Assembly (NCBI GenBank): GCA_023251255.1
Contig: JAHEZD010000025.1
Location: forward strand, 1-64,000
Direction: 5' to 3'
DNA: 64,000 nucleotides
Source of the DNA: Chitinophagaceae bacterium
Lineage (GTDB): Bacteria > Bacteroidota > Bacteroidia > Chitinophagales > Chitinophagaceae
Each line of letters starts with the position of its first letter. Positions within the stretch are counted from its first letter, which is position 1. Both the position numbers and the translations under genes were made by a program. The notes under the pieces are model-generated. The model was not told where the DNA came from. It was given only the letters and a program-made list of their open reading frames with translations, and ran no database searches. Below are positions 13,354 through 58,292 of the stretch, piece by piece.

Positions 13354-13832
13354 GCACAAAACGTTCCTATGGAACGTAAATAAAAATATTGGTTGTTTTC
13401 TACCCATAAAATGTTCCGATGGAACATAATTCATACTAAATTATTGCTTTTTGACACGAAGTGTTGAGGGGATGGAAAGTATAAGAAGATAGCCTGTTTT
13501 GTTCTTTAGGGATGGCCTGTGTTCAGGAACGCCCATAAAATGTTCCGATGGAACATAATTCACAATGAATTATTGCTTCTTGACACGAAGTGTTGAGGGG
13601 ATGGAAAGTATAAGAAGATAGCCTGTTTTGTTCTTTAGGGATGGCCTGTGTTCAGGAACGCCCATAAAATGTTCCGATGGAACATAATTCACAATGAATT
13701 ATTGCTTCTTGACACGAAGTGCTAAGGGGATGGGAAGTAATAAGAAAATAGCTTGCTTCGTCCCTTAGGGACGGTTTGTGTGTAGAACCCAATTACAAGA
13801 AATGTTCTTCGTTCCATAGGAACGATTTGTGC
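13354..13832. repeat. Palindrome cluster 1: 129-bp tandem units between inverted GGAACG palindromes
   Basis: A 479-bp non-coding cluster bounded by inverted copies of one palindrome: GCACAAA then ACGTTCCTATGGAACGT at the left (13354-13377), and CGTTCCATAGGAACG then ATTTGTGC at the right (13810-13832). Inside, units beginning CCCATAAAATGTTCC start at 13403, 13532 and 13661, a strict 129-bp period. Each unit carries ATGTTCCGATGGAACAT, then GACACGAAGTGTTGAGG, then a TTTAGGG-type palindrome. The first two units are nearly identical and the third is diverged. No gene lies in 13255-13996. Confidence 0.9.
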
Positions 13833-13996: not shown

Positions 13997-14329
13997 ATGA
14001 TAGACCAATCAATGGTAACCACCAGCTTTACATTGGACGGTTACAAAGTAAGCAGGAGCCTTGGTGTAGTGCGTGGCATTACCGTGCGCTCAAGGAGCTT
14101 ATTGGGCAATATTGCCGGCGGTTTCCAAACCTTGTTTGGTGGCAAGATTTCCATTTATGTGCAGCTCTGTGAACAAACGAGGGAAGAGGCTTTCCAGCAA
14201 ATGATGGAACATGCATCGGAACGTGGTGCCAATGCCATCATCAACATGCGTTACGATGCCAATGAGGTAATGAACGGTGTTACGGAAGTACTGGCTTATG
14301 GTACGGCCGTGGTGGTGGAAAAGGCTTAG
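13997..14329 (+). CDS. YbjQ / UPF0145 family protein
   Basis: A 110-residue cytosolic protein of the YbjQ (UPF0145, DUF74) family, small proteins that assemble as pentamers; the function is not established. Family features are VSRSLGVVRGITVRSRS, a Gly-rich FGGKISIYVQLCEQTREEA turn, and HASERGANAIINMRYDA. The length is typical. It is monocistronic and convergent with the oxidoreductase gene, with only 9 bp between the stops. Confidence 0.9.
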   Translation: MIDQSMVTTSFTLDGYKVSRSLGVVRGITVRSRSLLGNIAGGFQTLFGGKISIYVQLCEQTREEAFQQMMEHASERGANAIINMRYDANEVMNGVTEVLAYGTAVVVEKA

Positions 14330-14338
14330 CCCGTTCTG

Positions 14339-15682
14339 TTATGATATAACCCTTGTTGCCTGTGGCTTCAATGTGGTAAGGTCTGCAATGTTCACGACAT
14401 TGTTGGTGTCGATGCTGTTCCTTGCTGCTATGCCTATAAGTATGGCCATGGAACCATCCCTGCTTCCTGCGGATTGGTGGTAGGTATCCTCACCCCCCAT
14501 GAACACCTGTTTGCGTAAACGGACATCACCGCCGCCATGTCCTTCTTCCTTGTTGGACAGCTTGATGATTTCCCTTTTGCCAAAAGTGGGCATCACATGT
14601 ATTTCATCAAATGGCTCTTTTTCCCATGGTTGTTTCTCCTTTATCCAGGCATCCAGCTTGCCCTTGGTGCCACTGAAGGAAATCCGGTAGCCTTCATAAG
14701 GGGAGTAGGCAGTTAGGGAATAGCTTACCTGCACTTTGTTCTTGTATTTTATCTGCACGGCCATCTTATCGAAGATGTTGATGTCTTCCTTGAACACGCA
14801 GCCATCCCTTTTGTAGCCATCATATTTTTCATTCTCCACATAGAGGTCCGTGAGGTACTTGTTCTTGGTAATATCGAAGAAGAACTTGCAATCCTTGGTG
14901 TAGGGGCAAACCCTGCAATTGTCGGCCCGCATGGTGCCGTTCTTGCCGTACACGTTCAGTCCGCCATAAGCAAAAACCTGTTCAGGGTCACTATTGATCC
15001 ACCAGTTCAGCAAATCAAAATGGTGCGATGCTTTATGTACCAATAGGGAGCCACTGTTTTCCCTCAAACGGTGCCATCTCCTGAAATAATCGGCACCATG
15101 GGAGGTGTCCAGGTACCAGTGGAAGTCAACGGCTGTAATATCACCAATGGCCCCGTTCCTCAGTAGCTCATAGATTTTTTGGCGGTGTGGCGAGTAGCGG
15201 TAATTGAAAGTGACCAGCACTTTCTTGCCTGTTCTTTTCTCCGCATCCAAAATGGCCTGGCATTTTTTTTCATCGGTGGTCATGGGCTTTTCCGTAATGA
15301 TATCGGCCCCATATTCCATGCCCTTAATGATGAACTCGTTGTGTGTGCCATCTACCGTGGTCACAATCAACCGGTCGGGTGTTGTTTCCTTCATCATCTT
15401 GTCAAAGTCGGTGTACACGGGGCAGTTTACATTGAGTGCCTTTAGGGCATATTGCAGCCTGCCGGCGTTCTTGTCGCAAAGGCCCACAAACTCGATGGTA
15501 TCCTTGCCGAACTCTTCCATCACGGGCTTGCCCCACATGCCAATACCTCGATGGCCCGTGCCCACCATGGCTATGCGCTGTTTTTTATTGATGGAAGTAA
15601 AGGGTATTCCATTTAAGGAGTCGGCAAGCAGCACGCTTCCCAATGCCGCCGAAGTCTGGCGGATAAAAGCTTTACGGTTCAT
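14339..15682 (-). CDS. Gfo/Idh/MocA-family oxidoreductase with export signal
   Basis: A 447-residue NAD(P)-dependent oxidoreductase, probably acting on a sugar or sugar derivative. The N-terminus (MNRKAFIRQTSAALGSVLLA) looks like a Tat or Sec signal, common for this family in Bacteroidota. The Rossmann motif is MVGTGHRGIG, the substrate/cofactor motif is DIITEKPMTT, and the C-terminal alpha/beta domain has VDFHWYLDTSHGADYFRRWH. Four Cys in DNCRVCPYTKDC and YKRDGCVF could bind metal, an unusual insertion. A periplasmic catabolic role is inferred from the leader. No partner genes adjoin it. Confidence 0.88.
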   Translation of the reverse strand: MNRKAFIRQTSAALGSVLLADSLNGIPFTSINKKQRIAMVGTGHRGIGMWGKPVMEEFGKDTIEFVGLCDKNAGRLQYALKALNVNCPVYTDFDKMMKETTPDRLIVTTVDGTHNEFIIKGMEYGADIITEKPMTTDEKKCQAILDAEKRTGKKVLVTFNYRYSPHRQKIYELLRNGAIGDITAVDFHWYLDTSHGADYFRRWHRLRENSGSLLVHKASHHFDLLNWWINSDPEQVFAYGGLNVYGKNGTMRADNCRVCPYTKDCKFFFDITKNKYLTDLYVENEKYDGYKRDGCVFKEDINIFDKMAVQIKYKNKVQVSYSLTAYSPYEGYRISFSGTKGKLDAWIKEKQPWEKEPFDEIHVMPTFGKREIIKLSNKEEGHGGGDVRLRKQVFMGGEDTYHQSAGSRDGSMAILIGIAARNSIDTNNVVNIADLTTLKPQATRVIS

Positions 15683-53368: not shown

Positions 53369-53858
53369 GCACAAAGCGTTCCTACGGAACGCAGGGGATG
53401 TTCTTGGGATATTTTTTTTCTACCCATAAAGTGTTCCGATGGAACACAATGCTAATGTAGATAATAGGCATATTATAAAGCGTTCCTTCAGAACACAGAT
53501 AATTCTCCATGAATCTTGTCCCATCGGGACCTCTTGTGGAATAATCCGATGATTGTATTCACGTTCTGTGAATGCAGGTGATTCTCTGTCATGTTTTTTA
53601 CCCATAAATCGTTCCCATGGAACGCAAATGACTCTCTATCCATCTTGTCCCATCGGGACATCTTGTGGAATAATCCGATGATTGTATTCACGTTCTGTGA
53701 ATGCAGGTGATTCTCTGTCATGTTTTTTACCCATAAATCGTTCCCATGGAACGCAAATGACTCTCCATCCATCTTGTCCCATCGGGACATCTTGTGGGTA
53801 GCCAAATAATGCGATAATTGTATTCACGTTCCATCGGAACGTTTTGTGCCAAAATAAC
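53369..53858. repeat. Palindrome cluster 2: 129-bp tandem units beside a Y1 transposase
   Basis: Left boundary GCACAAA then GCGTTCCTACGGAACGC (53369-53392); right boundary CGTTCCATCGGAACG then TTTTGTGC (53827-53849), inverted to the left. Units start at 53472, 53601 and 53730, a strict 129-bp period. Each holds CGTTCCCATGGAACG (diverged in unit 1), GTCCCATCGGGAC and an ATTCACGTTCTGTGAAT palindrome (replaced by the terminal palindrome in unit 3). An extra CCCATAAAGTGTTCC site lies at 53423. The plan and length (481 bp between outer palindromes) match cluster 1. The transposase gene starts 60 bp further on. Confidence 0.9.
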
Positions 53859-53917
53859 CCACCATCGGATTGGCATTTATCCGAACGGTTCGTATATTTA
53901 TTATCATATTATTTCCC

Positions 53918-54379
53918 ATGCCCAACACCTACACCCAAATCCATCTCCAATTTGTATTTGCCGTAAAATACCGTGCTGCATTGATTGATAGATCCTGGAA
54001 AGGGGATCTGCATAAATATATCACCGCCATCATCCAAGCTGAGGAACATAAAATGCTGCAGATAAACAGCATGCCCGACCATATCCATATCCTTGTAGGA
54101 TTAAGGCCCACACAGGCCATTTCATCGTTGGTGCAGAAAGTAAAAACAGAAAGCAGCAAATGGGTAAAGGACAAAGGGCTTTGCCCAATGCCATTTGCTT
54201 GGCAGGAAGGCTATGGTGCATTTTCGTATTCCAAAAGCCATGTGGAAAGCGTGGTACGTTATATACAGAACCAGGAAATCCACCACCGCAAACAAACATT
54301 CCTGGAAGAATACCTGGCTTTCCTAAAAGCATTTGAAGTGGAGTATGAGGAGCGGTATATTTTCAGGGAGTTGGAGTAG
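53918..54379 (+). CDS. REP-type IS200/IS605-like Y1 transposase
   Basis: A 153-residue HUH/Y1 transposase of the TnpA_REP (RAYT) kind. NSMPDHIHILVGL is the HUH metal motif, SHVESVVRYIQNQEIHH carries the catalytic Tyr (YIQNQ), and FAWQEGYGAFSYS is the conserved strand between them. The start at 53918 (MPNTYTQIHLQ) matches the family; an upstream ATG at 53870 is not needed. The active site is intact. Such enzymes cut single-stranded DNA at hairpins and are usually single-copy next to their REP palindromes; the GGAACG palindrome cluster immediately upstream fits that role. Confidence 0.92.
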   Translation: MPNTYTQIHLQFVFAVKYRAALIDRSWKGDLHKYITAIIQAEEHKMLQINSMPDHIHILVGLRPTQAISSLVQKVKTESSKWVKDKGLCPMPFAWQEGYGAFSYSKSHVESVVRYIQNQEIHHRKQTFLEEYLAFLKAFEVEYEERYIFRELE

Positions 54380-54460: not shown

Positions 54461-54729
54461 ATATCTCAAAAGTCTTCCAAGATGTCACATTGAGCAATAC
54501 ATGTTTATATTGCAAACAAACATATTAAAATGACAGATTGAAAAGGGTGCCAATCATTTTTTCGAAGCGAGACCTTCGAAGGAGAATGTCAGCCTGAGCT
54601 TGTCGAAGGCAGCCAACAGCAAAGGATTTCATCTGTCAATGACAGTTTGTCGAAATGCAGTACAAACGTGATCCCCAGCTAAAATACTTCGACAGTCTCT
54701 TTGACATTCACTTTTGACTATTGAGATAT
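54461..54729. mobile_element. MITE-like element with ATATCTCAA terminal repeats
   Basis: Terminal inverted repeats ATATCTCAAAAGTC (54461-54474) and GACTATTGAGATAT (54716-54729) match at 13 of 14. The interior has AATGTCAGCCTGAGCTTGTC and CTTCGACAGTCTCTTTGACA, the CTGACA/TCGACAGG-type repeat. No open reading frame; the rest of 54380-54877 is empty. Confidence 0.6.
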
Positions 54730-54877
54730 GCTTAGTATATCCACCATTTGAATGTGCTTTATGATTGGATCCATTTTAGCATTGTACAATAACTAGATTA
54801 ATACCCGATTAGCTATTGCCACGCGGCACTCTACATAAATAATTTATCATGTATATTCGGCTCTTCATAACCTGCTC

Positions 54878-58216: not shown

Positions 58217-58258
58217 TAACACAAAAAAAGCGTGAAGAGTCACGCTTTTTTTGTGTTA
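58217..58258. terminator. Terminator of the outer-membrane barrel gene
   Basis: Eighteen-bp perfect stem containing AAAAAAAGCGTG/CACGCTTTTTTT around a 6-nt loop, with intrinsic U-runs in both directions; 35 bp past the stop of the gene at 58293. Confidence 0.9.
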
Positions 58259-58292
58259 AATACTGTTTACTGCTATGCATCGAAGCTGCTTT

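Follow-up and report, generated by a model that had tools for sequence, protein, structure and literature searches.

The window, a stretch of 64,000 nucleotides from a Chitinophagaceae bacterium, contains a transposase gene, tnpA, that is preceded by an inverted array of GTTCC/GTCCC hairpins at positions 53370-53848. The left end of the array is formed by a CACAAA tag (53370-53375) and the right end by TTTGTG, in the opposite orientation (53843-53848); 69 nt lie between this last tag and the ATG of tnpA at 53918. A palindrome cluster with inverted CACAAA and TTTGTG ends next to a transposase, as proposed in an earlier sequence-only reading of this DNA, is thus found at these positions. Two types of hairpin are distinguished: O (outer) designates a TAGCACAAA-like hairpin and I (inner) a hairpin carrying a CTACCCA tag. 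The features of the locus are listed below with the basis of each assignment.

53370..53392, plus strand: CACAAA-tagged outer hairpin O+ (hairpin 53376-53392), forming the left end of the island (sequence and pattern reading, folding)
53420..53447, plus strand: I+ inner hairpin (hairpin 53431-53447) with CTACCC tag and loop GAT (pattern reading, folding)
53474..53494, plus strand: diverged hairpin TATAAAGCGTTCCTTCAGAAC (repeat comparison, genome pattern search)
53475..53732, plus strand: two 129-nt tandem units, 90% identical, with a third from 53733 of which 65 nt match (repeat comparison)
53518..53538, minus strand: GTCCC hairpin with CACAAG and without CTAC (pattern reading)
53598..53625, plus strand: inner-type hairpin with TTACCC tag (pattern reading)
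53647..53667, minus strand: GTCCC hairpin with CACAAG and without CTAC (pattern reading)
53727..53754, plus strand: inner-type hairpin with TTACCC tag (pattern reading)
53776..53801, minus strand: I- inner hairpin with CTACCC tag (pattern reading, folding)
53826..53848, minus strand: CACAAA-tagged outer hairpin O-, forming the right end of the island 69 nt upstream of tnpA (pattern reading, folding)
53918..54379, plus strand: tnpA, Y1 (HUH) transposase of 153 aa, TnpAY1 subclass 1.2 by motif (ORF, Pfam Y1_Tnp, NCBIfam, alignment)

From left to right, the array runs from O+ (53370) and I+ (53420) through the diverged hairpin (53474) to a series of alternating minus-strand and plus-strand inner-type hairpins, and closes with I- (53801) and O- (53848). 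Within the series, minus-strand hairpins of the GTCCC..GGGAC type (53538 and 53667) alternate with plus-strand inner-type hairpins bearing TTAC tags (53598 and 53727). The array contains CTACC and TTACC tags as well as the outer ones; these tags, the minus-strand GTCCC..GGGAC hairpins and a second island in the window are additions to the sequence-only reading. The description of the array as three equal 129-bp units holds for two of them, 53475-53603 and 53604-53732, which share 90% identity; in the third, the first 65 nt match (82%) but the later part is shifted, with a spacing of 136. The palindromes at 53370 and 53425, on the left, fall outside the 129-nt register. When folded as single-stranded DNA, the four end modules of the two islands present in the window are more stable than the average of their shuffled versions (z -2.4 to -4.5), an equally good fold being reached by 0-4 of 200 shuffles. 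On reading the DNA 3' of tnpA in the window, no right-hand module was found; the left-hand I- O- alone adjoins the gene. The region downstream of tnpA (54560-54740) carries GTCAGCCTGAGCTTGTCGAAGGC-type repeat copies, which belong to a different repeat family; a similar one occurs in L033 near 3070. A terminator-like inverted repeat, TAACACAAAAAAAGCGTGA..TCACGCTTTTTTTGTGTTA, is located at 58218-58260; it contains CACAAA yet is unrelated to the islands.

The second island of the window is organised as follows.

13355..13831: island of the same plan with no transposase adjoining (pattern reading, folding); its parts are O+ at 13355, the I+ tag at 13400, CCCATAAA hairpins at 13534 and 13663, I- at 13785-13760 and O- at 13831-13811

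This island also contains a 129-nt tandem unit, but its filler is unrelated to that of the first island. The period common to both was taken as chance, given that other islands show periods near 73, 98, 146 and 248 nt.

The same hairpins are dispersed throughout the host, a 6.1 Mb draft genome. GTTCCN3GGAAC occurs 53 times versus 14 for the reversed pattern, and CAYAAANNGTYCCNNNGGRAC is present in 35 exact copies (20+15) versus 1 for its reversed control, or 44+43 versus 21+27 when up to 2 mismatches are allowed. The palindrome with a 4-nt loop, GTTCCN4GGAAC (20 versus 17 for the control), was discarded as having the wrong loop length for the window hairpins, which the N3 pattern fits. The hairpin sites group into about 17 islands; of the 17 stretches inspected, 16 overlap no ORF of at least 90 aa, the exception being an ORF within the repeats of the window array. 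In the 21 strict outer copies, conservation starts 2-3 nt before CACAAA and the sequence farther out is unrelated; in 14 of these 21 copies the inner tag is recognised 43-50 nt farther on. The hairpins form two-hairpin modules, an outer TAGCACAAA hairpin followed 43-50 nt on by an inner CTACC-tagged one where it is recognised, arranged in inverted, intergenic islands. Repeated AACCTATAAGGTTT palindromes lie beside two island copies in L033 (5690-6290).

The tnpA ORF had been described as intact, and it does encode 153 aa from an ATG common to its homologues. The product scores 99.5 bits against Pfam Y1_Tnp. It contains D54, H55 and H57, W95 and Q96, and the Y115xxxQ119xxH122H123 signature; all nine of these residues are invariant in the 30 rows of the alignment (30/30), where the middle residue of the H-u-H motif is I, V or L. 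Quentin et al. 2018, in the accessible text of PMC6006769, characterise TnpAY1 subclass 1.2 by the motifs DH[IV]H, WQ and Y---Q--HH, a length of about 148 aa and 'low copy number'. The window protein carries DH[IV]H, WQ and Y---Q--HH, and its length of 153 aa and single 53% identical homologue agree with the size and with low-copy, divergent genes. We assign it to subclass 1.2 by its Y---Q--HH signature. The other homologue found in its own genome lies on contig C182 (L045 1198-2060). Some genomes of the family have up to 12 transposase matches at E<=1e-3. A third Y1-like protein (L046 2823-3443, contig C43; 37.4 bits) has NHVH and YLHMNP motifs and would be class 2 by motif.

The gene had been labelled TnpA_REP, that is, a classical RAYT accompanied by its REPs. 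This would account for a Y1 gene next to an ordered set of inverted palindromes with dispersed genomic copies. A structure model of the window TnpA (pLDDT 85.7) finds the RAYT structure 4er8 among its fold matches (rank 30, E 3.3e-6); however, it is better matched by the ISDra2 and IS608 transposases, the best hits (E 3.8e-9 and 4.6e-9). Moreover, the protein scores 30.3 bits against REP_Tyr_transpos (NF047646), below the cut-off of 80, but passes the IS200/IS605 model NF033573 with 73.7 bits for a cut-off of 55, and it has Y---Q--HH in place of Y---NP. Finally, of 536 hairpin strands near tnpA, a single one has GTAG at 0-2 nt on the 5' side of its hairpin. The RAYT identity was rejected on these grounds, and we regard a classical RAYT as extremely improbable; membership is spoken against, while the working analogy stands.

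At least 80 named loci with transposase homologues were collected. Most of their titles are of Bacteroidota; L109, L112, L128, L140, L143, L156, L165 and L175 are titled otherwise or nameless. A set of 111 loci combines 80 named loci, 29 family loci, the window and the C182 paralogue; the named and family samples overlap, and related genomes are not independent. Hairpin density in the first 100 bp reaches 4.5 per kb upstream and 6.2 per kb downstream of tnpA, and is 0.2-0.5 per kb beyond 1 kb. Among the matches listed, 40 of the 80 named loci, versus 4 of 138 control windows, have the same arm in at least two hairpins within 1 kb of the gene. The commonest arms, counted by loci, are GTCCC (33), GTTCC (17), ATCCC (14) and GCCCC (7).

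The inner tag is located at a fixed distance from the hairpin. Across the 111 loci, a gap of exactly 9 nt separates CTAC from the inner arm that follows it in 250 cases, any other gap from 0 to 19 accounting for at most 10; in the farther flanks of these loci, the 9-nt gap is found 12 times and other gaps 0-6 times. The second tetramer at this gap is TTAC (65 cases). At least one CTAC-N9 hairpin is present in 89 of the 111 loci and absent in 22. Among the matches listed, 63 of the 80 named loci carry such a hairpin no farther than 1 kb away, compared with 7 of 192 control windows. Up to 150 bp from the gene, the tags point towards tnpA, with 53 minus and 9 plus orientations upstream and 46 plus and 7 minus downstream. 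The CTAC (or TTAC) tag is thus held at a fixed hairpin distance in the relatives and is tied to the subclass 1.2 clade in many Bacteroidota. A search for an outer-hairpin tag common to every lineage yielded none that stood out.

Pairing of the stems was assessed at sites picked by CTACC and CC..GG alone, by scoring the three free arm positions. The first site of each locus is fully paired in 72 of 74 cases (shuffles: mean 27%, maximum 38%), and 68% of all 243 sites are fully paired versus 18% after shuffling. The stems vary among lineages yet remain paired. Stem types cluster on the TnpA tree (37 changes versus a shuffled mean of 49, with 0 of 200 shuffles as low), but this clustering was set aside as proof, being labile, and near-copies make the labels cluster. 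The C182 paralogue has two CTAC-N9 hairpins with different stems (TGAGC and TCGGC); its own palindromes have TTGGGC, TTGAGC and TTCGGC stems. No YTAC-N9 hairpin was found at nine plasmid loci outside Bacteroidota whose protein has Y---Q without HH (subclass 1.1), these controls being hand-picked from 385 matching plasmid records, nor at two Bacteroidota plasmid loci of subclass 1.2. At one of the latter two, TTTCTAC repeats with other stems flank the gene on both sides.

The distribution of tagged hairpins in whole genomes was determined with the pattern CTACCN8GTYCCN{3,4}GGRAC, which covers GTTCC/GTCCC stems alone, so that lineages with other stems count as negative. Of 195 family genomes, 35 contain it, with 275 sites in total versus 5 for the reversed pattern; of 39 named genomes, 28 do, with 155 sites versus 3 reversed. 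Flavobacterium sp. ov086 alone has 30 tagged sites. A transposase match at E<=1e-3, a threshold that includes remote Y1 proteins, is present in 107 of the 195 family genomes: in 31 of the 35 pattern-positive genomes versus 76 of the 160 negative ones. Accordingly, 76 of the 107 genomes with a match have no site of the GTTCC/GTCCC pattern. With closer homologues the association is as follows: 25 of the 61 family genomes whose best match reaches E<=1e-40 are pattern-positive versus 10 of 134 others, and with a tnpA identity of at least 67% the proportion is 11 of 12 versus 24 of 183. When the host genome itself is excluded, the latter becomes 10 of 11 versus 24 of 183 (Fisher p about 8e-8, related genomes not being independent).

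It had been stated that the proposal would fail if the palindromes were common in genomes lacking the transposase. This is mostly not the case, 31 of the 35 tagged family genomes having a transposase match, but it does occur in four: G077, G078, G091 and G163 each have at least 3 tagged sites and no tnpA match at E<=1e-3. They may reflect loss of the gene, an assembly gap, or evidence against the proposal. G154, G167 and G086, genus mates of three of these genomes, do have a tnpA match.

The four genomes would also be expected if the repeats were ordinary regulatory or terminator hairpins, or had been spread by other machinery, with tnpA merely settled alongside; so would the position of 16 of the 17 islands, outside ORFs of at least 90 aa. 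However, terminators are not expected to show a fixed tag spacing, tags that face the gene, or repeated arms near tnpA relative to controls, and the nine chosen subclass 1.1 plasmid loci have no YTAC-N9 hairpin. We therefore consider this explanation improbable. The linkage in many lineages, the dispersed copies and the co-distribution lend support to the core idea of the sequence-only reading, namely that the transposase adjoins palindromes that serve as its substrate.

The arrangement of the modules in relatives bears on what moves. The pairs listed for G074 include five with a spacing of 139-140 bp and one of 86 bp; 602 bp separate the two members of the pair around tnpA (14257-14709). The order I- O- O+ I+ is common to the dispersed units read in G074, G196 and G077; the plan of the window islands is O+ I+ .. 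I- O-. At each end, the unit of G074 that carries tnpA can be aligned with dispersed units over 70-90 bp, at about 76%. Such a common plan with alignable ends, and the contrast between the 139-140 bp pairs and the 602 bp pair around tnpA, could be explained by a self-mobile insertion sequence in which tnpA and the flanking modules move jointly, the dispersed pairs being internally deleted, MITE-like copies. That the protein passes the IS200/IS605 model is in line with this. However, the 86 bp pair indicates that the spacing is not uniform, the sole other homologue found in the genome of the window is only 53% identical, and the window gene lies outside the island with the left-hand module alone adjoining. 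In addition, the modules are inverted, whereas the accessible part of PMC5934647 describes the end hairpins of IS608 as both lying on one strand. A self-mobile element is in our view unlikely, though less so than terminators or settled repeats.

With the IS200/IS605 family (subclass 1.1; IS608, ISDra2) the locus shares the HUH/Y---Q protein, the fold and a YTAC|C tag like the TTAC|C of IS608. The locus differs by its inverted, arrayed hairpins, by the extra HH motif and C-terminal part of the protein, and by the absence of a tnpB-like ORF in the examined stretch and of near-identical copies in the genome. Nor do hairpins lie subterminally on a single strand at the two ends of the gene; the tags face the gene from both sides.

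A further parallel is the REPtron of, for example, Escherichia coli, in which a RAYT (TnpA_REP) is associated with REP, BIME and REPIN sequences (PMC6006769, PMC8266576, in their accessible parts). A low-copy Y1 gene and inverted palindromes that are also dispersed intergenically are common to both. Palindromes adjoin the gene and recur across the genome, as for RAYTs, and an inverted palindrome pair occurs as a dispersed unit, as in REPINs and BIMEs. In the REPtron, however, the protein is of class 2, with Y---NP, and GTAG/GTGG stands 0-2 nt before the hairpin, whereas here it is of class 1.2, with CTAC/TTAC 9 nt before the inner arm and two-hairpin modules. According to the accessible text of PMC8266576, the REP strand bearing GTAG is the one that E. 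coli TnpA_REP recognises, and the enzyme cleaves at CT. The TIRtron/TIRYT (Di Nocera et al. 2013, PMC3733652), compared by description from the accessible text, likewise has a tyrosine transposase gene between inverted repeats, possibly with a dispersed family; its proteins are RAYT-like and its TIRs long, some of them sharing GGGGWSAS.

We conclude that the locus is probably REPtron-like, consisting of a low-copy subclass 1.2 Y1 (HUH) single-stranded DNA transposase beside an array of its putative substrate hairpins. Weighing against this reading are the four tagged genomes with no tnpA match, the 76 matched genomes with no site of the GTTCC/GTCCC pattern, the 22 loci and the two Bacteroidota plasmid loci with no CTAC-N9 hairpin, the lack of a right-hand module in the window and the published view of the subclass as having no REP. 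All listed motifs, the length, the occurrence in Bacteroidota and the 'low copy number' are shared with subclass 1.2 as given in the accessible text of Quentin et al. 2018 (PMC6006769), where the subclass generally lacks typical IS200 end structures. The entry for REP in Table 1 of that paper is 'no'; here, tagged hairpins are present at most loci examined. This suggests that a transposase group published as REP-less does have partner repeats. In the openly accessible articles searched, no report of palindromes associated with subclass 1.2 was recognised.

In the mechanism that we propose, TnpA would bind the hairpin in single-stranded form, for example on the lagging strand, cut at or near the YTAC|C tag by means of tyrosine 115, and rejoin the pieces. 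Modules copied or moved in trans would accumulate into islands, the gene itself staying low-copy. We propose the tag as the putative cleavage site for one reason, its resemblance to the preferred IS608 site TTAC|C; IS608 inserts 3' of TTAC, and TTAC|C accounts for about 70% of its integrations, according to the accessible part of PMC5934647. By analogy of layout, we would guess that O and I correspond to the left and right ends of IS200.

A more specific version of the REPtron-like reading is put forward tentatively, its chances being somewhat below even. It would be a second REP-like system, on the IS200-side Y1 clade 1.2, in which a two-hairpin module of about 75-80 nt moves in single-stranded form, O and I act as IS200 left and right ends, YTAC|C at its fixed hairpin distance is the cleavage site, and a low-copy resident transposase keeps the modules multiplying across Bacteroidota. 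The published picture of subclass 1.2 is one of transposases without insertion-sequence features or REP partners, whose role is open. If the hairpins are their substrates, the subclass gains a testable function; REP-like repeats would then have evolved with at least two transposase clades, and there would be an explanation for a class of Bacteroidota intergenic repeats. As to the extent of the mobile unit, the dispersed copies in relatives are similar over about 170-440 bp, past the inner hairpins, and the moving unit may therefore be larger than the hairpins.
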